Positions 8,105 through 27,792 of a DNA stretch of 40,517 bases are shown here, piece by piece (the stretch's first letter is position 1; every line of letters starts with the position of its first letter). Origin of the DNA: a virus; IMG/VR virus record IMGVR_UViG_3300025293_000009, positions 1 through 40,517 of that record. One strand, given 5' to 3'. The position numbers were made by a program, and so were the translations under genes. The notes under the pieces were generated by a model. The model did not search any database. It was not told the origin of the DNA and saw nothing but the letters and a program-made list of their open reading frames with translations.

Positions 8105-8557
8105 CTAATAATTAATTCTAACTTCAAAAAAGGTTGCTGGTCTTTTCCAGCCTATGTTCTTAATCCAATTCCAGAAACCGGGTCTCCCGATTCCCTCCAA
8201 TCCATCGTATCCATTTTGCCTGCTGTATTTTTTCAGCATCTCAAGACCATCTGTAAACCATTCATCCATCTTGATTCCAGCAATATGGTCAAAATGTAGC
8301 ATCCTTAACCCTGTTGCATACTCTCTGACAAATGTTACCAGACAGCCTATAATTTTCATGTTACTGGTGTTATATACAATCCACAACTGACTCCTGCCAG
8401 AAGCAACATCCCGATATGCATCATCAATAGTTACTCGACCACCGCTTCTCTTAACAGATTTCTTCAATAGTTTGGCACAATCTTCCCAACACTTGTCCAA
8501 AATATCTGGATGTACCATCGACCATTCAGTCTCGTACTTCAATGCAGGCTCATTCAT
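8105..8557 (-). CDS. GNAT-like acyltransferase-fold protein
   Basis: This 150-residue protein overlaps the gene before it by ATGA. It has the pattern of the small GNAT-fold proteins found in phage structural clusters: an N-terminal helix, GRVTIDDAYRDVASGRSQLW as helix plus first strand, WIVYNTSNMKIIGCLVTFVR as paired strands, then a strand with DHIAG, a helix EWFTDGLEMLKKYSRQNGYD and the end RPGFWNWIKNIGWKRPATFF. That last part resembles the usual GNAT C-terminal half, where a neighbour residue is compared with the grown protein chain. The classic R/Q-x-x-G-x-G/A acetyl-CoA loop is not obvious, so catalysis is uncertain. It may modify a phage or host protein, or be a structural derivative of the fold. 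The fold call is moderately secure; substrate is unknown. Confidence 0.75.
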   Translation of the reverse strand: MNEPALKYETEWSMVHPDILDKCWEDCAKLLKKSVKRSGGRVTIDDAYRDVASGRSQLWIVYNTSNMKIIGCLVTFVREYATGLRMLHFDHIAGIKMDEWFTDGLEMLKKYSRQNGYDGLEGIGRPGFWNWIKNIGWKRPATFFEVRINY

Positions 8558-10935
8558 ACAGGCAATACTTTCTTACTGTCTATTGGCTTTGCTTGTTTTA
8601 TAGTGCCTGTCTTAGCCATCCTTACTCTCTTAGACATACCATCCAGCTTTCTTGAGCCTTCATTAGAATTGCCATCGCCTAACTGGGAAACCACATCTGC
8701 TGGCACTATATATTCTCCCGGTGATGTTGCTATTCTTTCCTGACTTCCAGCAATTCCCGGAACAAAATCATCCATGCCACCACCAAATCCTTCTATCAGC
8801 CCTTCTGTCTGTGCTCCCGGTGATTGCGACTGCAAGACTTGCTCTCTCAGGGACGTAAACGCTTCCTGCCCATAAAGACCAATAAACTTCTGGATGACCG
8901 CATCTACTGTCTGTTGATCTGGAAGCATTCCAAGAATAGCCTGTACTGTTGCCTGAATGAGCTGTTCATTGCCTTCGGTCATCATTGCTTCTTCTCCACC
9001 TGTACCACCAAGCTCTCTGGTCAGCCCAGCAATCCCTTCTCCTGCTTGATAACGAAGCGCCCCCCCTAATTGTTTTCTAGTTCTTGGTTCAAGAATATTA
9101 GTTACAGTTAATCCTTTTTCTTTTCTATCTCTTATTAATTCGCGTCCCTTTTTACCATGAAAAGTTATATTGCCTTCTATATCAACAGTCATACCATCTG
9201 TTTCATCTTCATCTATATATGAATAATCATCTCCTTCTGGTAACGAAGAACTAAAATTTCTTTTATATGCCTGATAATCCTTCCAAGCTGCAATTGGAGC
9301 AGCCACTCCATATTTAGCATAATATGGCCCAGACCCCTCTGAATAACCTCGTCTTGCTTGTCTGTCCTGAAATTCAAAGTAGCCCATAGGTTCATCTTCC
9401 TCTTCAGTCAGCCCAGCAATTCCTTCTCCTTCTTGATACCTTGGTATCTTACCGCCTTTGGCGAAACCCCATCCTGAAGTTCCATAAGGATTCTCAGGAA
9501 CGTATTGTTGAGGCTGAAGTGCATTCAGACTGCCCATAATAGCTGACAAATCCTGTGAATAATCAGGCATTTGATAGGTAGGCATGATCCCTTGTATATC
9601 TTCCAAGCTCGGTCCGCCATAACCAAGACCGCCTATCTGATCCTGTAAATTCTGGAATTGCTGATTGTAGTCTGGCATCTGGAACGAAGGCATATTTCCT
9701 ATTTGCGACCCTAATCCACCAAGACCTGATTGAATATCAGCAAATTGCTGACTGTAATCTGGCATATCAAAAGATGGCATTATTCCCTGAATATCCTCTA
9801 AACTTGGACCACCATAACTAGGCATTATTCCCTGTATGTCTTCCAAACTAGGTCCGCCATAACCTTGATAGCTTGGCATGATACCCTGAATATCCTCTAA
9901 GCTCGGTCCACCATAACCAAGACCACCTATCTGTTGTTGTAAGCCTTCAAATTGCGAGGAATAATCAGGCATTTGATAGCTAGGCATGATTCCTTGTATA
10001 TCTTCTAAACTAGGTCCACCATATCCCTGATAGCTTGGCATATCCCCTATTTGTTGTCCTATCCCACCAAGACCTGTTTGAATATCAGCAAATTGCTGGG
10101 AATAATCAGGCATCTGGAATGATGGAATGTTCCCTATTTGCGACCCTATACCGCCAAGACCAGCTTGAATATCAGCAAACTGTTGACTGTAATCTGGCAT
10201 ATCAAAGCTAGGCATTTGAAGACCGCCTATTTGCTGTCCTAATCCACCGAGGGTTCCTTGTAAATTCTCGAATTGCTGAGAATAATCTGGCATTTGAAAT
10301 GAAGGCATATTTCCTATCTGTGATCCCAAGCCACCAAGACCTGTCTGCAAATTCTCAAACTGCTGTGTATAATCTGGCATCTCGAAAGATGGCATATTGA
10401 TATTGCCCGCTATATTTCCAGCCAAAAGATCGTAATCTATTTCTGGCATTTCATAGGATGGCATTTGAAAATCCTGAAACTGAGACTCAAGACCTCCAAG
10501 ACCAGTCTGAAGATCAAGAAATTGTTGGTTCAACCCTGAGTAATCAGGCATATCAAAAGTTGGCATATCTATTTTGCTTGCCAACAAATCGTAATCTATT
10601 TCAGGTGGAGTATATTCAGGAAAAAACTGTCCAAGATCAAAGCCCCCTCCATCTTCCTGATAATCAATACCCAAATCAATATCATAAGGATTCCATCCCG
10701 GTGGAAAAGTAGGGGCTACACCCGGATAGGTAAAGATAGGATCAGTAATCGGACCAGTCGGGTCGGCAGGAGGGTTCAATGTTGAGCCAAAATAATTCCA
10801 TTCTGGATCGATGCCCGGTCTGTAATCAGCAGGCGGCGCAACAACCCCTCTTCTTTGCACACTAACCGGAGGTGTCCACCCTTCACCTACAGGATCAAAG
10901 TCTTCTGGCAACGTATATCCGCTTGATCCGCCCAT
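8554..10935 (-). CDS. Repeat-rich putative virion protein with GEYIVPADVVS C-terminal motif
   Basis: A TTG lies four codons upstream, but the ATG at 10935 (MGGSSGYTLPEDF) is preferred: it sits two bases after the upstream stop and six bases after GGAG, giving 793 residues. The N-terminal 110 residues are Pro/Gly/Asp-rich. A block of tandem repeats follows (MPDYSQQF, LQTGLGGLGSQIGN, YGGPSLEDIQGIMPSY). Then come two copies of a Gly motif (FAKGGKIPRYQEGEGIAGL and GGALRYQAGEGIAGL). The C-terminal part has MDDFVPGIAGSQERIATSPG and GEYIVPADVVSQLGDG, a module common next to internal virion genes of marine phages, ending in a basic tail. No enzymatic motif is seen. Position in the virion cluster suggests a structural or ejected protein; the exact place in the particle is unknown. 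Confidence 0.85.
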   Translation of the reverse strand: MGGSSGYTLPEDFDPVGEGWTPPVSVQRRGVVAPPADYRPGIDPEWNYFGSTLNPPADPTGPITDPIFTYPGVAPTFPPGWNPYDIDLGIDYQEDGGGFDLGQFFPEYTPPEIDYDLLASKIDMPTFDMPDYSGLNQQFLDLQTGLGGLESQFQDFQMPSYEMPEIDYDLLAGNIAGNINMPSFEMPDYTQQFENLQTGLGGLGSQIGNMPSFQMPDYSQQFENLQGTLGGLGQQIGGLQMPSFDMPDYSQQFADIQAGLGGIGSQIGNIPSFQMPDYSQQFADIQTGLGGIGQQIGDMPSYQGYGGPSLEDIQGIMPSYQMPDYSSQFEGLQQQIGGLGYGGPSLEDIQGIMPSYQGYGGPSLEDIQGIMPSYGGPSLEDIQGIMPSFDMPDYSQQFADIQSGLGGLGSQIGNMPSFQMPDYNQQFQNLQDQIGGLGYGGPSLEDIQGIMPTYQMPDYSQDLSAIMGSLNALQPQQYVPENPYGTSGWGFAKGGKIPRYQEGEGIAGLTEEEDEPMGYFEFQDRQARRGYSEGSGPYYAKYGVAAPIAAWKDYQAYKRNFSSSLPEGDDYSYIDEDETDGMTVDIEGNITFHGKKGRELIRDRKEKGLTVTNILEPRTRKQLGGALRYQAGEGIAGLTRELGGTGGEEAMMTEGNEQLIQATVQAILGMLPDQQTVDAVIQKFIGLYGQEAFTSLREQVLQSQSPGAQTEGLIEGFGGGMDDFVPGIAGSQERIATSPGEYIVPADVVSQLGDGNSNEGSRKLDGMSKRVRMAKTGTIKQAKPIDSKKVLPV
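9545..10570 (-). repeat. Degenerate tandem repeats inside the 793-residue protein
   Basis: Two interleaved protein repeats are visible. One is about 30 residues: MPSFxMPDYSQQFxxLQ followed by a GLGGLGSQIG-type stretch, seen about eight times. The other is YGGPSLEDIQGIMPSY, about 16 residues, seen five times. The units are mixed in order, which suggests expansion and shuffling by unequal recombination rather than a single duplication. Confidence 0.85.
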
Positions 10936-10937
10936 AT

Positions 10938-13148
10938 CTAACTCCAATTCCCGTTTATGTATCTGTCTTTGTATATTGAACCACCGCCAGCATATCCACC
11001 AACTGCACCACCAGAAGCAGCAAGCGCATCTATTGGAAAGTTCTCTGGATAGTATGCTTCAATGTCTCTTTCTCTCTGCTTTCTTTGTTCTTCCATAGCT
11101 AATAGATAATCTTCAAACGCTTCTTGACCCTCGTTTTGTAGTTCTAGTGATTTTAATGCAGTGAAACTAATACCTTCAGGCGTAAATATTGCATCTTTCA
11201 CCCCACCGAAACCTCCACCTTTCACTGCTCCCCATCTATCACTAGGAGTAGCTCCTTTCCAGTCAAACGGATTATTGGCAGCAAAGGTTTCCTTGAAGAT
11301 TCCCAATTGCTTTGGAGTCGCTCCTGCTGTTTCTAAAAATGTCATAGGATCAGCCCCTGCTGTACCCTGAGCTAAAAGATTTGAACCAAGCCCTGCTTTT
11401 GTGAGCGCATCCACGCCCATTGTGCTAGGTATGTTAGAAAGACTTCCCGGAACCGCAGAAGGTATAGTAATAGGAATTGATCCACTTGTTCCTGCAAGTG
11501 CCTGAACGTGCTCTGGTACAGCACCTGTAATGCTAACACCACTAGGATCAAAGGTTGCAGGATCACTCAAAAGATTTTCAACATTTCCAGTATCAGCCAT
11601 ACCTTCAAACGCCTTAGTGCCTAAAGCACTTATTCCTCCTGATATAGCCATATCTTTAAGATCACCGCCCTTCATGGCTGTAATTGCTGCGCTCATCGCC
11701 CAAGGCGGAATACCAACCAATGATCCTAAAAATGGTGCTGCGAACCCAAGTATATCGCCAAACAATCCTGCTTCCGGCAATCCTGTTTCTGGGTTTATGG
11801 TCATCATTCCCGGTGCCAGTGATGCAAGACCCTGTACTTCCTCTGGGGTAACGTGCATAAGCATGGTGTCATCACCGCGCCCTGCTCTGGAGAGCCTGTC
11901 TGCCTGTCCTGTTAATGTGCCGCCTTGTGCGTATCCACCAGCTTGTTCAGCCTCAATCAATGCCTGAATCTCAGGACTCATACCATCAACATCAACACCG
12001 GAAAGAGCCAGTAGCTCTGCCAATTCTTCTTGCCTGTCAGCTTCATTGCCTGCAATAAATTCTTCCAAGTTTCTTTTTTCTTCCCTTCTTCTCTTTACTG
12101 GAGCAAGGGCTGCATTTAATATAGTTGCTCCTGTAACTGCTGACAATGGTGTTAAGACTTCTCGCATCATTTCTCGTTCAGCAGCAGTAGCAGCACTTTC
12201 TACTGTAGGTCTGAGCGCAGTAAGGGCGGAGCGTCCTTTTGCTCTAGCAAGCTGTTCACTTAATGTAAGCCAATCATCAGCACCAGTAAATTGAGGGCTT
12301 AATCTCGGCAACCTGTGTTTTGCGCTTTGCATTGCTTTTATCAAAGCTGTTACACCAGCTTTTCCACCAAGGCTTGTAAGCCCTGCCATTGGTGGCATAT
12401 ATCTTTCAGGGTCAGTTGGATCAAATTCTGCAAGCGCAGCCATTCTTTCTTCATGGAACTTTCTGGCTTTGCTCTTTTTAGATTTTTTGACTTTTTTTCC
12501 CTTGGCATATTGTCCTGCTGGGGTAGTTCTTCTTCCATGGGGGTCAAAAGCAAGCGGTGCTCTTTGACTTTCATGCGGTGAAAAAGATGCTGCAAAATCC
12601 AAAAGCTCATCTCTATATTCGTCTTTCATCCAGTCAGGTAAAAGTTTAATAGCATAATCAGGTCTATATACATCAGGATGTCGCTCCATTGTGCGCCTTC
12701 TTTTTTTAATAGTACTAATTTGGTTGCGCCCCAACTTTAATGACCTAATATCAAATTTTGGCTCGGCTTCTATCCTTTCAGGTCTTCTTTCTGCTGTAAC
12801 TTCAATCTCTTCAATCTCTGGAGCAACTTCTGCTACTGTTGAGGGAACCCTAATTCTTTTCCTTTTTGCTTCTCCTATAACTTCACCAATAACTTCACCC
12901 AATCCAAGAGTTGATGCTGCTGCTGTAGCACTTGCTGGAACAGGATATTTACGCAATGACAAATTATCAAAAAGACCGCGAAGCCCTCCACGAAGTCCAC
13001 CCAAACGCCCAGCCCTAATATCCCTTATCTGGCGTTCAAGCTGTCTTCTTTTTCTCCTGTCGGTTCTGTTTTTTCTGCCAGTCGCATTCAGCTCCTCGTA
13101 AAGAGCATCCAGAACTGGATCGCCTTCTCCCATATATCTTTTAGCCAC
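10938..13148 (-). CDS. Putative internal virion protein, GTG start
   Basis: This 736-residue protein starts at GTG, placed eight bases after a strong GGAGG. The first 60 residues are very basic (RKNRTDRRKRRQLERQIRDI). A Lys-rich stretch lies near 215-230. Residues 404-410 hold the Gly motif GGYAQGG. Next is GDDTMLMHVTPEEVQG then MMTINPETGLPEAG (425-461), a module I associate with phage internal virion proteins. Residues 461-495 form a hydrophobic Gly/Ala-rich stretch (FGDILGFAAPFLGSLVGI) that could insert in a membrane. The C-terminus ends in GGYAGGGSIYKDRY, another copy of the shared motif. The membrane-active segment and cluster suggest a DNA-ejection role, but this is inference. No catalytic motif is visible. 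Confidence 0.82.
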   Translation of the reverse strand: MAKRYMGEGDPVLDALYEELNATGRKNRTDRRKRRQLERQIRDIRAGRLGGLRGGLRGLFDNLSLRKYPVPASATAAASTLGLGEVIGEVIGEAKRKRIRVPSTVAEVAPEIEEIEVTAERRPERIEAEPKFDIRSLKLGRNQISTIKKRRRTMERHPDVYRPDYAIKLLPDWMKDEYRDELLDFAASFSPHESQRAPLAFDPHGRRTTPAGQYAKGKKVKKSKKSKARKFHEERMAALAEFDPTDPERYMPPMAGLTSLGGKAGVTALIKAMQSAKHRLPRLSPQFTGADDWLTLSEQLARAKGRSALTALRPTVESAATAAEREMMREVLTPLSAVTGATILNAALAPVKRRREEKRNLEEFIAGNEADRQEELAELLALSGVDVDGMSPEIQALIEAEQAGGYAQGGTLTGQADRLSRAGRGDDTMLMHVTPEEVQGLASLAPGMMTINPETGLPEAGLFGDILGFAAPFLGSLVGIPPWAMSAAITAMKGGDLKDMAISGGISALGTKAFEGMADTGNVENLLSDPATFDPSGVSITGAVPEHVQALAGTSGSIPITIPSAVPGSLSNIPSTMGVDALTKAGLGSNLLAQGTAGADPMTFLETAGATPKQLGIFKETFAANNPFDWKGATPSDRWGAVKGGGFGGVKDAIFTPEGISFTALKSLELQNEGQEAFEDYLLAMEEQRKQRERDIEAYYPENFPIDALAASGGAVGGYAGGGSIYKDRYINGNWS

Positions 13149-18895: not shown

Positions 18896-19624
18896 CTAAG
18901 TTATTGCCAATTCTGGCTCAACTTCCCAACAGTTCAGGTTCGTTGCCACTGTCCTGCGTTCACCTTTCCCGAAGAAAGGGTAAACCATGTGTTGCAGCCA
19001 CGAGGGAAACACGAACAATCTGCCCACCTGTGGTTGCACTTCTGCACTCTGTGGAGGTCGCAATCGCTCTACATCCATGATCTGGTTGCGTCCGTAACTG
19101 AACGCCAAATAGCCGTCACAGGCTCCAGAATCATCGTACTTACTGTATTGCGGTGATCCTGCTGTGGGTTGGTCCAGTATCTGCTGTGGCACTTTCGTCC
19201 ATCCCGTGGTCGATATGCCCATCAGGGTTTTGGTGCCGTGGTCGTGGATCGGGTTGTAATCGCCCTCGAAACTGTGCACCGACCAAGCCTCGTCAACTGC
19301 TATTTGCCTCGGTTTTTCCAAGGCGTGTCCTGTGTGTGACATTACTGTGTTTACATAGGAAGCCCCAAGACCTGTTATAAATTGGCAGTATTCCTGTAAC
19401 AGTTCATGTTCTGGGTCCATGTTCAGTTGTTCACCACGATGGATTTGCCCTACTAAAGTCCCTGACAGGGATTCCCTGTCGTCCTGTTTCAGCAGTTCAT
19501 CCAAATAGGTGTTAAGGTCTTTGACCATCTTCTCTGGCATCTGCGTTTCCATCAGAAACACCGAAGGCAGTTGATGTATTTCTACCTCTATGTCCTTGGA
19601 CTTCTTCTTCTTTTTCCTAGCCAT
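18896..19624 (-). CDS. 2OG-Fe(II) oxygenase-like protein
   Basis: This 242-residue protein starts with a Lys run (ARKKKKKSK). The core has EAWSVHSFEGDYNPIHDHG with H127, D128 and H129, a strand MGISTTGW, and late VGRLFVFPSWLQHMVYPFFG with H212 and an Arg pair at 223-224 that could bind the 2-oxoglutarate carboxylate. The pattern double-stranded helix, early His cluster and late PSWLxH matches phage 2OG-Fe(II) oxygenases, which are common in marine phages. Such enzymes hydroxylate or oxidise proteins, nucleic acids or small molecules. Its neighbours are the fibre gene cluster and lysis genes, so modification of a virion or host surface component is possible but not shown. Confidence 0.75.
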   Translation of the reverse strand: MARKKKKKSKDIEVEIHQLPSVFLMETQMPEKMVKDLNTYLDELLKQDDRESLSGTLVGQIHRGEQLNMDPEHELLQEYCQFITGLGASYVNTVMSHTGHALEKPRQIAVDEAWSVHSFEGDYNPIHDHGTKTLMGISTTGWTKVPQQILDQPTAGSPQYSKYDDSGACDGYLAFSYGRNQIMDVERLRPPQSAEVQPQVGRLFVFPSWLQHMVYPFFGKGERRTVATNLNCWEVEPELAIT

Positions 19625-19626
19625 GA

Positions 19627-19950
19627 CTAGCTAGGGATTACATAGTCAGGATCAGGTACTGGGTCATCCGGGGGATTGGTAATCACGCTGTCGTACTGGC
19701 TGGCGAATATATCATCCCACTTGCTTATCGGGCAAAGTGCGGTCAATTGTGCCAACGTCCATGAGCCTTCCGCCTTGGGCGTAAAGTTCACTGTACCATC
19801 ACTATCAGTCGCTGGGATGGTTGTGTGCATATTCGAGGTATAATAAGTGGCATCTGCCCCTTCCTCGTATTTCATCGTAAAATCCCATTGCTGGACTTTG
19901 CTGCTCTTGTTATAGGGGACTGCTCCGGTTAAAGTTTTCGTCACTGCCAT
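19627..19950 (-). CDS. Small protein downstream of the giant fibre
   Basis: This 107-residue protein starts after GGAG and lies two bases beyond the fibre stop. It begins AVTKTLTGAVPYNKSSKVQQ and contains aromatic strand pairs (WDFTMKYEEGADATYYTSNM), a segment WTLAQLTALCPISKWDDIF that may be a helix, and a Pro/Asp-rich tail (NPPDDPVPDPDYVIPS). Small proteins in this place often assist fibre folding or attachment in tailed phages. The family is not recognised with certainty, so assembly-chaperone is only a suggestion. Confidence 0.75.
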   Translation of the reverse strand: MAVTKTLTGAVPYNKSSKVQQWDFTMKYEEGADATYYTSNMHTTIPATDSDGTVNFTPKAEGSWTLAQLTALCPISKWDDIFASQYDSVITNPPDDPVPDPDYVIPS

Positions 19951-19952
19951 TT

Positions 19953-22900
19953 TTATTCTCCGTTATTGTCGCACTTATCATGTGCTTTTTGTTTTAATTC
20001 CTCGACTTCTGCCGAGAGTTCTTGGACTGCTTTTACAAGCATTGGTATCAAACCACCTTTAGCTATTTTCTGCACCTTATCATCGCTTGTTTTCCAAATG
20101 CCTTGTCCATCTTTAATGCTATCGTATTTATCAATGGTCGCTTTAACCTCTTGAGCAATAAATCCATGCCTAAAAGTATCATCCTGTCCAAGACATCTTT
20201 CTTCAGAGTCTTCTTCATAATGTGGCATATCAGATGGAACATCCTTCTTTTTCTTCCATTGATAAGTAATTGGTCTAAGTTCGTTGATAAAGGCTAATCC
20301 TGCTGTTGAGTCCTCTACATTTTCTTTCAGTCTTTCATCTGAAGATGCTGCCCAAGCCTCGTCTGAACCATTTAAATCCAGTTCAGCAATATTGCTTCCT
20401 ATTCCTACAGTTATTCTAGCATCTTGAGTAGCGGTTACACCTTGACCTATAGCAATTCTACTTGCTGCGCTTGATGAACCTGTATCTGATGCTGAACCAA
20501 TACAAGTATTACTATTGCCTGTAGTTTGTGTGTCTCCTGCTCTTTTGCCAATAAAAGTATTATCAGTTCCAGTAGTTATAGCACCTCCTGCTTCATAACC
20601 GACACAAACAGTGCTATCGGCTGTAGTAGCTGCGGTCATGGCATAAGCACCAACAGCAACATTGCCAGATGCCGTAGTTAGAGCATCCAGAGCATAAGAA
20701 CCAACAACCGTATTTGTTCCACCTGTTGTAATTGCACCACCTGCATAATAACCAATAGCAGTATTGTCACTAGGGTTTGTTGCTAGTGTTAATGCTCCTG
20801 TACCAACTGCTGTTTGTCTTTCTCCTGTAGTAGCTGTACCTAAAGCTCCTGAACCTATAGCAGTTGTGCCAGAACCTGTGGTTAATGCATCAGCAGCGTT
20901 TGCTCCAACTGCTGTATTATGTCCTGCGCCACCATTAGTAATATTAAAAGTTCCTAAAGCAGAAGAACCCACAGCAGTATTCTTTGGGGAAGTTGTATTT
21001 TGAGCCAGAGCCGAAGCACCAAGAGCAGTATTGCTTGCACCTGTAGTTAGCGCACTACCAGAATTATAACCAACTAAAACATTATTTCCACCTGTTGTAA
21101 TTGCATCCCCTGCAGCGCCACCAATAACAACCGAAGCATCGGCTGTAGTGCTTGCTGTCATAGCCTGATAACCGATAGCTACATTATTAGATACAGTTGT
21201 CGCTGCATCTAATGCTTGATAACCGATAGCTATATTATTTCCGCCTGTGGTGTTAGCATATAAAGCACTTTTACCAATAGCTACGTTGTTATTGGCTGTG
21301 GTATTACCACTTAAAGCACTATCTCCTAATGCAGTGTTATCAGCGCCTGTAGTATTTGCATCTAATGAATAAGTGCCAATAGCTGTATTTCTCGGTCCTG
21401 TTGTATTTACTCCAAGTGCAGAATGCCCCACTGCAACATTATCATTAGCGGTTGTATTAGCGTCTAAAGCACCATAACCAACAGCAACTTGATTACCGCC
21501 TGTGGTGTTTGCTGTTAAAGCACTGTTACCAATAGCTGTATTATTAGATGCTGTGGTATTAGCCATCAAAGAGCCTTGTCCGACTGCTACATTTGATGCA
21601 CCAGTTGTGTTTACTTTTAATGCTTCAGTACCTACAGCAGTGTTATTGCTTGCTGTGGTGTTTGCTGTTAAGGAATCTTTACCGATAGCGACATTTTGTT
21701 CCCCTGTGGTATTAGCATCTAAAGCTAAAGCACCAACAGCAACATTAGAAGCACCTGTGGTGTTTGCCACCATAGCAGATTTACCCACAGCAACATTATT
21801 AGCTGCTGTGGTGTTTGCATATAAAGCACCATCTCCAACAGCAACATTTGATGCGCCTGTAGTATTGGCTGATAAAGAATTATACCCAATAGCTACGTTT
21901 GAATTCGCTGTGGTATTGGCATCTAAAGCTAAACCACCAACAGCTACGTTGTATGCACCTGTGGTGTTTGCTGTTAGAGCATCCATTCCCACTGCTGTGT
22001 TGTTTGAAGCTGTGGTATTAGCTCGTAAAGCATCTCTACCAATGGCTGTATTGCTTGCTCCTGTTGTGTTAGCAACAAGCGTATAAGCACCGATTGCGGT
22101 GTTGTTCGCAGCCGTTGTAATTGCCACACCTGCGTTCATACCAACAGCAGTATTAGAATTACCTGTAGTAACTCCTGATAAAGCGTTAGAACCAACAGCC
22201 GTATTTTCTACAGCAGTTGTAATTGCATCACCTGCCAGATAACCAATACCTGTATTGTCTGCACCTGTAGTATTAGCTGTTAGAGCAAGATGACCAACGG
22301 CAGTGTTTTTACTAGCGGTGGTGTTTGCTGTTAAAGAGCTATAACCTACAGCTACGTTTGATGTACCTGTGGTGTTTGCTGTTAAAGCTAAAGCACCAAC
22401 TGCGATGTTGTTATCTGCTGTGGTGTTTGCGCCTAAAGCACTATGACCAACTGCTGTATTGCCATCACCAGTTGTATTAGCGCCTAAAGTATTATATCCA
22501 AAGCCATTGTTGCTCGCACCAGTTGTATTAGCATCTAAAGATGTATAACCAACAGCAGTATTCTGTGCGCCTGTGGTGTTTGCTGCTAAAGTCTTAGAAC
22601 CAACTGCTGTATTATTATTGGCTGTTGTGTTTGCTAATAAAGCATTGTAACCAACAGCAACATTATTTTCCGCTGTAGTACTTGCTTGCATGGAATCATA
22701 GCCTACTGCTACATTATAGTTACCAGCAGTATTTGTAGTATTTAGTGCCCTATAGCCAACTGCTACATTTGCAGCGCCTGTAGTATTCGTTGCCATTGCA
22801 CTAGCACCAACTGCCGTATTCTGTGAGCCAGTTGTTTGTGCACCTAGTGCATTTATACCTATTCCAGTATTGTTGCTTGATGTGGTGTTGGCATCTAGTG

Positions 22901-24260
22901 CTGCATAGCCAACTGCAACATTACTGTCACCTGTGGTGTTTGCTCCTAAAGCACTTGAACCAACCGCTACATTGTTAGCTGCTGTTGTATTGGCATCGAG
23001 AGCACCTCTACCTACCGCAACATTATTTGCTCCTGTGGTGTTTACGTTTAAAGCAAAATAACCAACGGCAGTATTGCCGTCTGCTACATTAGCATTCAAA
23101 GATTGTGAACCTACTGCTGTTACATAAGAACCACCATCAGGATAGTTGGCTGCATATCCTACGGCTACGTTTTCTGTGTCATCTACATTTAAAGCACCAG
23201 CAGACTTACCCACAGCAGTGTTATTAGCACCTGTGGTATTTGCTGATAAAGCAGCCTGTCCAACAGCAACATTATTAGCTGCTGTAGTGTTAGCATCTAA
23301 TGCTAAAGCACCTATTGCAACATTCGATCCACCTGTGGTGTTTACTTTTAAAGCATCTGCCCCAACTGCTGTATTATTTGAAGCGGTTGTATTTGCTCCT
23401 AATGCGCTTGCCCCTATTGCCGTATTTGTTGCTCCTGTGCTATTCGCCGTCAAAGCATTATATCCCATACCTGTGTTGTTATTAGCTGTAGTATTCGCAT
23501 CAAGAGCGTATGTTCCCACGGCTACGTTTTGTGTTCCCGAAGTATTTGCACCTAATGCTTCAGCACCAATGGCTGTATTGTTGTCTGCTGTTGTAGCTGC
23601 ATCCAAAGCCTGATAGCCCACCGCAACATTTCTTGCACCAGTTGTTGCTAACAACAAAGCTGCACTACCAATCGCAACACTGGTTGTTCCAGTAGTTATT
23701 GCACCACCAGCATTATCACCCACTGCCGTGTTGTCTGTGCCACTGGTCACTGCATCAAGCGATGCTTCACCAATAGCCACGTTGTCTGTTCCTGTGGTTA
23801 AAGCCGTGCCCAAAGAACCAGAGCCTAAACCTATATTGCCTGTGCCACCTGTCATATCGAGGACATCGGTAACTGCTGCGCCTGATCCTGCGCCATCGGC
23901 AACCACCATCTTGATGCCGCCATTCGGAATTACGACATTGGCTCCTGTGCCTTGGCTGATGGAAACTGCGTAACCGGCAGAGTTCTGAATAACCCAAGTT
24001 TTATTGACTGTATTCGGTGCAAGGGTAACTGTGTTCAGTGCAGTGATCGAGCCTGCAAGGGTCATTGCATAGGCTCTAGCTGCATCGGCTGTGCCATCCG
24101 CCATGGTAATCGTATGCGTAGTGCCGGTTATGGTTTCAGAGCCACTGCCCCATGCTTCCGCGATCAGTTCTAAATTTGTGTTTGTTGATGTGCCCCAAGT
24201 ACCTGACTCATCGCCAGTAGCAATTTCCTTGAGCCTTAGATCATTTACATAAGTTGCCAT
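19953..24260 (-). CDS. Tail fibre with YadA-head-like repeats and S74 self-cleaving chaperone
   Basis: This 1435-residue protein has three parts. Residues 1-140 (ATYVNDLRLKEIATGDESGT...) are the attachment-type N-terminus seen in marine phage fibres. Residues 142 to about 1265 consist of about 66 tandem 17-residue units, consensus NNTAVGxxALxANTTGA, as in trimeric YadA-type adhesin heads. Residues from about 1306 form an endosialidase-type intramolecular chaperone (peptidase S74): SSDERLKENV, LRPITYQW, HGFIAQEV and a C-terminal coiled coil. Ser1307 and Lys1312 are spaced as in the known Ser-Lys cleavage pair, so release of a 129-residue C-terminal piece after trimer folding is expected. GAGGAAA precedes the ATG. 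Function is probably host recognition through a trimeric fibre. Confidence 0.93.
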   Translation of the reverse strand: MATYVNDLRLKEIATGDESGTWGTSTNTNLELIAEAWGSGSETITGTTHTITMADGTADAARAYAMTLAGSITALNTVTLAPNTVNKTWVIQNSAGYAVSISQGTGANVVIPNGGIKMVVADGAGSGAAVTDVLDMTGGTGNIGLGSGSLGTALTTGTDNVAIGEASLDAVTSGTDNTAVGDNAGGAITTGTTSVAIGSAALLLATTGARNVAVGYQALDAATTADNNTAIGAEALGANTSGTQNVAVGTYALDANTTANNNTGMGYNALTANSTGATNTAIGASALGANTTASNNTAVGADALKVNTTGGSNVAIGALALDANTTAANNVAVGQAALSANTTGANNTAVGKSAGALNVDDTENVAVGYAANYPDGGSYVTAVGSQSLNANVADGNTAVGYFALNVNTTGANNVAVGRGALDANTTAANNVAVGSSALGANTTGDSNVAVGYAALDANTTSSNNTGIGINALGAQTTGSQNTAVGASAMATNTTGAANVAVGYRALNTTNTAGNYNVAVGYDSMQASTTAENNVAVGYNALLANTTANNNTAVGSKTLAANTTGAQNTAVGYTSLDANTTGASNNGFGYNTLGANTTGDGNTAVGHSALGANTTADNNIAVGALALTANTTGTSNVAVGYSSLTANTTASKNTAVGHLALTANTTGADNTGIGYLAGDAITTAVENTAVGSNALSGVTTGNSNTAVGMNAGVAITTAANNTAIGAYTLVANTTGASNTAIGRDALRANTTASNNTAVGMDALTANTTGAYNVAVGGLALDANTTANSNVAIGYNSLSANTTGASNVAVGDGALYANTTAANNVAVGKSAMVANTTGASNVAVGALALDANTTGEQNVAIGKDSLTANTTASNNTAVGTEALKVNTTGASNVAVGQGSLMANTTASNNTAIGNSALTANTTGGNQVAVGYGALDANTTANDNVAVGHSALGVNTTGPRNTAIGTYSLDANTTGADNTALGDSALSGNTTANNNVAIGKSALYANTTGGNNIAIGYQALDAATTVSNNVAIGYQAMTASTTADASVVIGGAAGDAITTGGNNVLVGYNSGSALTTGASNTALGASALAQNTTSPKNTAVGSSALGTFNITNGGAGHNTAVGANAADALTTGSGTTAIGSGALGTATTGERQTAVGTGALTLATNPSDNTAIGYYAGGAITTGGTNTVVGSYALDALTTASGNVAVGAYAMTAATTADSTVCVGYEAGGAITTGTDNTFIGKRAGDTQTTGNSNTCIGSASDTGSSSAASRIAIGQGVTATQDARITVGIGSNIAELDLNGSDEAWAASSDERLKENVEDSTAGLAFINELRPITYQWKKKKDVPSDMPHYEEDSEERCLGQDDTFRHGFIAQEVKATIDKYDSIKDGQGIWKTSDDKVQKIAKGGLIPMLVKAVQELSAEVEELKQKAHDKCDNNGE
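20471..23837 (-). repeat. About 66 tandem 51-bp units in the fibre gene
   Basis: The units encode NNxAVGxxALxANTTxx, 17 residues each. Over long runs the ending alternates between NTTG and NTTA, giving a 34-residue (102-bp) higher-order period. Units 13-15, 22 and 57 deviate in length or sequence. The DNA copies are diverged but similar, which favours unequal recombination and assembly errors. Confidence 0.92.
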
Positions 24261-24279: not shown

Positions 24280-24978
24280 TTATGCTGCCTCATCTTTCCA
24301 GTCTGGAGACTGGGATGGGCTGATTGTTGAATAAGAAGGTGACTGGCTTGGGCTAATCCCAGTCCAGTTTGGTGTCTGGTCTGGAACAATCGAACTCCAA
24401 ACCAATAAAAATCCTGTGCCACCTGTTCCCGCAAGTCCAGTTACTGTGATATTAACATGGGTAGTAGCAGTTATCGAACCAAGCGCAGATGTCATCGCAT
24501 CTTGAGTTACCGCTATAACATTAACAGTAACAGTGCTAACACTGCCTAATGCACTGGTTCCAGCTACCCCGGTTGGATACACATTCGCAGCACCAGTAAC
24601 TGTTTCATCGCCTTGGGAAATCGTGGAAGCTGTACCACTGACTCCTGCAACTGCAAAACCTGCCGCCAGCAGTGTGCCTACCGCGCCTGTGCCAGCAAGC
24701 CCTGTTTCAGCAACTATCGCTCCACCTGTTGCGGTGACACTCGCTACTGCACTGGTTCCTGTGAGTCCTGTTACCGAAACATTGGCTACACCAGTGATTG
24801 TAAGGGAACTTATTGCCCCTGTACCGGCAAGACCTGTTACTGCAACATTTGCCGCAGCAGTAATAGTTAAGGAACTTACCGCACCTGTGCCTGCCAGACC
24901 AGTAAGCTCAACAGGGATTGGCTCACCCCAAGTGAGCTGACCCCAAGTCCCTCGACCCCAGCCAGTAATATTAGCCAT
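24280..24978 (-). CDS. Repeat-bearing appendage protein
   Basis: This 232-residue protein begins ANITGWGRGTWGQLTWGEP, a Trp/Gly start shared with many marine phage appendage proteins. Residues 23-180 have five or more beta repeats of about 24 residues, as VTGLAGTGAVSSLTITAAAN with variants. The C-terminus has a different repeat: IVPDQTPNWTGISPSQSP then YSTISPSQSPDW, ending KDEAA. The absence of charged residues and alternating strand pattern suggest a fibrous or decoration protein. It precedes the giant fibre gene by 19 bases and probably belongs to the same appendage. Confidence 0.82.
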   Translation of the reverse strand: MANITGWGRGTWGQLTWGEPIPVELTGLAGTGAVSSLTITAAANVAVTGLAGTGAISSLTITGVANVSVTGLTGTSAVASVTATGGAIVAETGLAGTGAVGTLLAAGFAVAGVSGTASTISQGDETVTGAANVYPTGVAGTSALGSVSTVTVNVIAVTQDAMTSALGSITATTHVNITVTGLAGTGGTGFLLVWSSIVPDQTPNWTGISPSQSPSYSTISPSQSPDWKDEAA

Positions 24979-27139: not shown

Positions 27140-27376
27140 TTAACCATTCTTACGGAATTTCTGAGGTCTAGCTGCACCACTTCCACGGGCAATTGTATAT
27201 TTCCCATAAGCATCAGTTTCAACTGTTCCGCCTGCTGCAAATCCTCCGGGAGAACGAGAAGCCTGTCGTCCTGCTTGTTTCGCCCTTCGCATTGCCTGTT
27301 GTCTTTTTGTTGGTCGCCTGACTTTTTTAGGCTGTCCCAAATTGGGATCAAATGGTTGTTTTGGTCTTACTGCCAT
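27140..27376 (-). CDS. Small basic protein with shared Gly motif
   Basis: A longer frame reaches upstream to 27604, but the upstream part lies in another frame of the 129-residue gene; the ATG at 27376, after GAGGATAAGATT, is preferred and gives 78 residues. It begins AVRPKQPFDPNLGQPKK and has KRQQAMRRAKQAGRQASRSP followed by GGFAAGGTVETDAYGKYTIA. The SRSPGGFAAGGT part is the same motif as in the next upstream gene, so the two are likely paralogues from tandem duplication. It is strongly basic and may bind DNA in the head or neck. Confidence 0.75.
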   Translation of the reverse strand: MAVRPKQPFDPNLGQPKKVRRPTKRQQAMRRAKQAGRQASRSPGGFAAGGTVETDAYGKYTIARGSGAARPQKFRKNG

Positions 27377-27402
27377 AATCTTATCCTCTAGGTTGTTATT
27401 GT

Positions 27403-27792
27403 TTATATTTTTCCACCGCCATACTTGCGCTTTACTTGGGCACTGTAACTTTCTATAGTTCCCCCTCCTGCAAATCCTCCGGGTGAACGAGTTGCTTGTC
27501 GTTTTGCTTGTTTTCCTGTTCTTACTGTTTTCGCTTTTGCTCTTTTTGCTTTTGCTTTTGCTTTTGCGTAAGCCCTTTTTCTTTTTGTTCTTGCTAATCC
27601 CCATGCTCTTTCTTCCGGTGTTAATGGAATCTCATCAATTCCGCCACCTGCTTGATACCCTCCGGGAGAACGAGAAGCCTTTCGTTTTGCTTGTTTTCCT
27701 TTTCTTGCTGTTTTTGCTTTTGCTCTTTGCTTTCGCCTGTATTCTTTCCCAGCTTCTATCTCAGAAAGCGGTCTTGATGAACGTACTGCCAT
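27403..27792 (-). CDS. Highly basic protein with duplicated Gly-motif module
   Basis: This 129-residue protein begins AVRSSRPLSEIEAGKEYRRK after a strong GAGGAG. It contains two copies of a basic-to-Gly module: KQAKRKASRSPGGYQAGGG near 33-51 and KQAKRQATRSPGGFAGGG near 94-111. Between them is a Lys/Ala run (AKAKAKAKRAKAK). The C-terminus is TIESYSAQVKRKYGGG, nearly repeated in the 171-residue protein upstream. Such composition implies disorder and nucleic-acid binding, for example condensing or holding DNA, while the repeated Gly part may dock to a partner. Function is inferred only. Confidence 0.78.
   Translation of the reverse strand: MAVRSSRPLSEIEAGKEYRRKQRAKAKTARKGKQAKRKASRSPGGYQAGGGIDEIPLTPEERAWGLARTKRKRAYAKAKAKAKRAKAKTVRTGKQAKRQATRSPGGFAGGGTIESYSAQVKRKYGGGKI

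Follow-up and report, generated by a model that had tools for sequence, protein, structure and literature searches.

Glycine–alanine alternation in the repeat array of a viral tail-fibre protein and its probable origin in layer packing

Does the apparent two-unit period of a protein repeat array record how the array grew, or how its units pack? The question is posed by a 40,517-base virus record (IMGVR_UViG_3300025293_000009, positions 1 to 40,517; the whole stretch is called the window here), in which an open frame on the minus strand (19953–24260) encodes a tail-fibre protein of 1435 amino acids, assigned by its PHROGs and Pfam matches. The protein carries an array of 66 units, mostly of 17 residues (residues 142–1267; 20460–23837, minus strand), whose units tend to end alternately in NTTG and NTTA. 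An initial annotation had taken the resulting 34-residue pattern as a sign that the array grew by copying pairs of units. That growth-record interpretation is mostly wrong; the apparent period is most likely the outcome of an exclusion of Ala–Ala neighbours between stacked layers, an effect whose atomic cause we infer below.

Position 15 and its direct neighbours

The array begins with unit 1 at 23837 and finishes with unit 66 at 20460. The estimate of about 66 units of 17 residues is borne out, with 61 of the 66 exactly 17 residues long, and the irregular units reported at 13–15, 22 and 57 are closely confirmed: units 14 and 15 have 16 residues, unit 22 has 18, unit 57 has 21, and the TTG turn is missing from unit 13. 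Unit 1, with 18 residues, is irregular too. The consensus is N-[TV]-A-[VI]-G-x-x-A-L-x-A-N-T-T-[GA]-x-x, and among the 61 full units position 15 is Gly in 34 and Ala in 22. Alternation at this position is far above chance: 12 of 49 neighbour pairs are alike where 25.2 would be expected (standard deviation, s.d., 3.4), a value that low being reached in none of 10,000 shuffles, and Ala–Ala neighbours number 2 against 7.0 (s.d. 1.8). The longest strictly alternating run comprises the 15 units 27–41 (21747–22511, minus strand) and was equalled in 9 of 20,000 shuffles. The signal resides in position 15 and partly in positions 16–17 rather than in the whole unit, and position 2 (V/T) of the window units does not alternate. 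At lags 1 to 8, position 15 fits the simulation of a first-order chain. "Period" is thus too strong a word for the 34-residue pattern, since such a chain by itself yields the parity at longer lags. The corresponding 102-bp signal in the DNA is confined to one place (21704–21971; 2.6 copies, 72% matches in Tandem Repeats Finder).

To place these counts in the family, relatives were assembled by two routes. The N-terminal domain identified 593 relatives in viral contigs, of which 80 loci were kept; these and the window form the 81 proteins in which 2111 of 2585 parsed unit lengths equal 17 (the final unit of a protein is given this length by default). Removal of 14 loci with fewer than 12 full units and of 11 sharing more than 30% of exact units with another locus left 55 arrays plus the window. 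The second set, found through the S74 region and two neighbouring genes, comprised 110 loci, 72 of which had reading frames with at least 8 canonical units; 53 non-redundant arrays were kept. Throughout, adjacency counts omit units that are not 17 residues long, as well as neighbours across such units. A further restriction to non-redundant pairs, less than 68% identical to each other, left up to 900 pairs at lags 1 and 2 and 834 at lag 3, drawn from 108 arrays.

The first set yields 1275 neighbouring Gly/Ala pairs (Gly–Gly 483, Gly–Ala 406, Ala–Gly 374, Ala–Ala 12), in which the probability of Ala is 0.457 after Gly and 0.031 after Ala. Within-array shuffles predict 100 Ala–Ala pairs (s.d. 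8) in place of the 12, or 80 (s.d. 6) in place of 10 when the conserved ends are left out, and two non-Gly residues of any kind are adjacent at position 15 in 28 cases against 157 expected. The second set behaves alike, with 14 Ala–Ala pairs against 92 (s.d. 7) and probabilities of Ala of 0.041 after Ala and 0.458 after Gly. Among the non-redundant pairs, Ala–Ala is depleted at lag 1 (14 versus 50.3 expected) and not at lag 2 (61 versus 58.8) or lag 3 (53 versus 55.7); the effect is limited to direct neighbours. A rule of this sharpness, with Ala following Ala in 3–4% of cases and following Gly in 46%, provides a direct constraint for the modelling of repeat fibres. A limited literature search by title returned nothing describing this Gly/Ala rule, which does not establish its absence from print.

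Co-variation between units and a proposed layered shaft

Neighbour dependence extends to other positions of the unit. The same position in adjacent units shows a mean excess mutual information of 0.088 bits, against 0.014 for unequal positions, and the value drops to 0.018 at lag 2 and 0.005 at lag 3. Co-variation at equal positions is the pattern that would be predicted for layers 17 residues apart, stacked in a β-roll. At positions 6, 10 and 12 it derives partly from conserved first units common to relatives; after restriction to non-redundant pairs it persists at positions 10, 12 and 15. Position 10 is moreover directional: Asp–Asp neighbours occur 15 times against 31.6 expected and Asp followed by Gly 51 times against 13.4, with Gly followed by Asp at the chance level (19 against 19.4). 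For fibres without a solved structure, the neighbour rule at position 15 offers a way to test stacking from sequence alone.

We propose, with a probability of about 0.68, that the array forms a shaft of layered β-roll or β-solenoid units governed by Ala–Ala exclusion at position 15, and that its length and tip change by cassette replacement. The shaft would belong to a phage tail fibre, probably a trimer, with one layer made by each 17-residue unit, and the fibre would serve in host recognition. Position 15 would lie in the turn between layers, preceding the inner strand, and would be Gly by default; Ala would be tolerated, and common, only where the layers directly below and above carry Gly. 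By analogy with the trimeric autotransporter adhesin BpaC, the Ala methyl group in the turn may need Gly in the layers on both sides: the available text on BpaC reports that a core-position Asn at one place is accommodated by Gly in the adjacent layer (PMC9543794). Where Ala is frequent, such exclusion would yield G-A-G-A runs that resemble a 34-residue period. At the 4.8 Å rise per layer given in that text for the BpaC structure (PMC9543794), 66 layers would make a shaft of about 32 nm. The C-terminal S74 domain would serve as a chaperone for folding, bringing about trimerisation of the fibre before being cleaved away; S74 trimerisation and cleavage have a parallel in pb1 of phage T5, as the accessible part of its description relates (PMC4690869). 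Fibre length and tip would differ mainly through exchange of an array-plus-tip cassette behind the conserved N-terminal domain, and not through repeat slippage.

A fold prediction is consistent with layering. The AlphaFold2 model of units 35–46 (12 units), built from an alignment with 41 stretches from relatives, is strand-rich, and its strands recur with the unit. In VIA-align comparisons of the model, GlmU left-handed helices lead (Z 11.7–13.1) and the YadA-like head 3s6l reaches Z 8.6, scores that are not decisive for repeats. Sequence searches of the PDB gave weak matches only, to left-handed helix proteins (chains CA3, CAG1, eIF-2B epsilon and hexapeptide transferases; E 0.001 to 0.9), and the Pfam family LbH_EIF2B was rejected with a match under its cut-off (23.3 versus 54).

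Several points weigh against the layered shaft and its neighbour rule. Because the unit parser requires Gly at position 5 and restricts positions 1–4, conservation at positions 1–5 is not evidence. Ala–Ala steps do exist, for example in L070 and L058; they make up 12 of 1275 pairs in the first set and 14 of 1066 in the second, and the rule is therefore strong and not absolute. Named phages (Ala–Ala 2, Gly–Ala 19, Ala–Gly 15, Gly–Gly 60) and bacterial loci (1, 8, 7 and 89, respectively) carry too little Ala for the rule to be judged there, and its support so far thus comes from this fibre family. The confidence of the AlphaFold2 model is modest (predicted local distance difference test, pLDDT, 68.5; predicted template modelling score, pTM, 0.62), and a Foldseek search with it gave no PDB match below E 3. 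AlphaFold2 is moreover said, in the portion of the source available, to invent or over-predict β-solenoids for repeats (PMC11795689), which makes co-variation the better argument for stacking. Within this family, the alternation is best explained as a packing constraint. That a general nearest-neighbour exclusion code governs β-roll shafts, with Gly at the turn position in at least every second layer, Ala at about half of the open sites, and Asp followed by Gly or Ser at position 10, is a possibility we hold only tentatively. Such a code would limit shaft evolution: copying a single Ala unit would create a disfavoured step, and copying a Gly unit or a Gly–Ala pair would not.

Among the closest known systems are the YadA-like left-handed parallel β-roll (LPBR; Hep_Hag/Ylhead) repeats in trimeric autotransporter adhesins, and in BpaC especially; these too are short layer repeats that have conserved Gly together with a motif in the inner strand. 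When the two are aligned by eye, G15-x-x-N-T-A-V-G5 of the window matches G1-x-N3-x-T5-A6-x-G8 of the 14-residue BpaC layer, as far as that layer is set out in the text available (PMC9543794). YadA-like layers measure 14–15 residues, against 17 here. The same portion of text describes a higher-order layer pattern in BpaC, of GDN-GEN-GSN triplets (PMC9543794), which are almost identical and are read by the authors as expansion, unlike the diverged units and neighbour exclusion seen here. No Hep_Hag match was found in the fibre protein with Pfam at E 0.01, nor did the families listed at E 0.1 for 42 stretches of twelve units include Hep_Hag. On unit length and the missing repeat-model match, a YadA-like LPBR head repeat was rejected; judged by sequence, the unit resembles the YadA-like 14-residue repeat and is not a member of it. 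A trimeric autotransporter adhesin was likewise rejected, as the C-terminus is S74 and no outer-membrane anchor family matched at E 0.01.

The same repeat type is carried by tail fibres of marine phages that infect Pelagibacter, Methylophilales and Roseobacter, among them HTVC111P, HTVC112P, Methylophilales phage Venkman and the Roseobacter CRP phages; the annotation of these genes reads tail fibre, tail structural protein or adhesion protein. These differ from the window in having fewer Ala units and, among those compared, at most 24 full 17-residue units. Fibres and tailspikes with S74 domains, such as T5 pb1 and the endosialidases, share with the window protein a C-terminal Peptidase_S74 above the Pfam cut-off and a place in the structural module. 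The solved distal domain of pb1 is, in the part of its description at hand, a bullet of intertwined sheets (PMC4690869), in contrast to the 66-unit array here. Ice nucleation proteins are likened to the fibre array by form: the text available gives them 65 tandem 16-residue repeats in a predicted β-solenoid (PMC9418140), with an unrelated function.

Array growth and array length

Recent copying of pairs predicts that units two apart share synonymous codons. In the window they do not: synonymous-codon identity at lag 2 comes to 0.458, and shuffling the order of the units gives 0.461 (z -0.16); the small lag-2 excess in DNA identity (z 2.3) derives from the amino acids (z 2.5). DNA identity between units peaks at 84% and averages 0.572 at lag 1. 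Among the 56 arrays only two, L033 and L065, hold a unit pair at least 92% identical. L033 contains a tandem copy of two units (92% DNA identity); in L065, two units (102 bases; parsed indices 14–15 and 36–37) are exactly repeated 22 units apart, through either gene conversion inside the array or an assembly artefact. Two-unit copying therefore occurs but leaves the family pattern unexplained. What looks like a higher-order period in a protein array is not necessarily a record of its growth.

An older event, the duplication of a 34-residue block of which the alternation is an eroded trace, would account for alternation over as many as 15 units and for the two-unit copies of L033 and L065, and at lags 3–6 the window leans slightly past first-order parity, none of these lags being significant (P 0.13–0.17). 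We nonetheless regard it as unlikely: besides the missing synonymous signal, Ala parity is absent at lag 2 across the 108 arrays, Asp–Asp at position 10 is depleted at lag 2 and not raised (19 versus 29.7), and the numbers of units by which related arrays differ are not mostly even (1, 2, 2, 3, 3, 3, 5, 10, 14 and 14 units between moderately similar arrays, both 14s comparing one array with two copies of one relative). Adjacent units might instead differ through selection against identical neighbours, which would guard against slippage, recombination or out-of-register folding. Strong divergence of the units in DNA, with 54 of 56 arrays lacking a pair that reaches 92%, would fit this, as would the avoidance of Asp–Asp at position 10, but only position 15, and Asp/Gly at position 10, show the effect. 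Gly–Gly is freely permitted (483 of 1275), the freely varying positions 6, 7 and 17 are not anti-persistent and show no repulsion between neighbours, and neighbours are more alike than chance at positions 9 and 12, all of which makes such selection rather improbable.

It had also been suggested that repeats of this kind change length quickly and thereby alter fibre reach. Array length does vary: the 38 relatives with a stop codon closing the frame inside the contig range from 26 to 73 units, and the one parser applied to all counts 68 for the window. Yet none of 12 near-identical array pairs, some of which may be re-assemblies of one sample, has gained or lost a unit, and L134, which may be such a re-assembly too, is 99.97% identical over 7348 bases and of equal length, with 60 complete units and none gained or lost. 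With neighbouring units also too diverged for slippage, a rapidly varying locus that tunes fibre reach is a very improbable account of the array. As a class, a slippage-type tandem-repeat locus was rejected on this constancy and on the lack of near-identical neighbour copies (best pair 0.84).

Replacement of array plus tip fits the turnover data best. In L003, the clearest close relative, upstream genes are 91–96% identical to those of the window, except for a variable neighbour of the fibre gene (24280–24978) at 55%; the fibre N-terminus stands at 95% and the downstream genes at 79% and 89%, against about 53% for the array and 40% for the S74 region. DNA similarity to L003 above the repeat background stops near 23566, and array plus tip look replaced. 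Among the 12 best-ranked relatives, L061 shares one exact full unit with the window and the other 11 share none. For phage biology, these comparisons suggest that fibres come to differ in length by replacement of shaft and tip and not by slippage of repeats. Comparable turnover of fibre repeats is known from the metaviromic islands of marine phages, where the accessible part of the description gives a conserved tail-fibre N-terminus, a repeat pattern specific to each fibre and a variable C-terminus (PMC3909814); the layer rule does not form part of that description as far as it is available (PMC3909814).

The fibre gene and its surroundings

The fibre protein matches PHROGs 23837, 4636 (tail spike) and 6002 (E 5e-183 to 2e-152), which are tail spike and virion structural families. 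Its N-terminal domain (residues 1–141; 23838–24260, minus strand), up to 95% identical in relatives, is presumed to be the virion-attachment end. Peptidase_S74 (chaperone of endosialidase, PF13884) covers residues 1307–1377 (20130–20342, minus strand; Pfam E 2.1e-12, 47.6 bits, cut-off 22). An SSDERLK motif starts at residue 1306 (window 20345), and we take it to have a role in self-cleavage and release of the S74 chaperone. By these matches the protein is an S74-type phage tail fibre. Its gene sits in a structural module with terminase, portal, major head and virion structural PHROGs, all on the same strand. The top portal relatives, 41–43% identical, belong to phages of Pelagibacter, Roseobacter, Planktothrix and a gammaproteobacterium; since these portal relatives are joined by marine-phage tail fibres with the same repeat, the window is likely to be a marine tailed phage.

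Downstream, a small gene of 107 amino acids (19627–19950, minus strand) adjoins the fibre gene in many relatives, followed by a 2OG-Fe(II) oxygenase (18896–19624, minus strand; PF13759, E 1.4e-12; phrog_81) that also adjoins the fibre. Fe(II) oxygenases are among the island genes named in the available text on marine metaviromic islands (PMC3909814). The variable upstream neighbour (24280–24978, minus strand) encodes 232 amino acids with 22-residue repeats of its own (66-bp tandem repeat at 24767–24900) and an SPSQSP tail; its identity in relatives is 34–76%, versus 57–93% for the gene preceding it. An NCBIfam search gave no match for six proteins. Elsewhere, an open reading frame at 8554–10947, which has no PHROG match, contains a 45/54-bp tandem repeat (9776–9918, minus strand) encoding repeated YGGPSLEDIQGIMP-like segments. 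At 27140–27792 (minus strand), two overlapping Lys/Ala/Arg-rich frames carry short tandem repeats; part of this stretch is unaligned in L003, L135 and L138, which align on both sides of it at 88–95% DNA identity.

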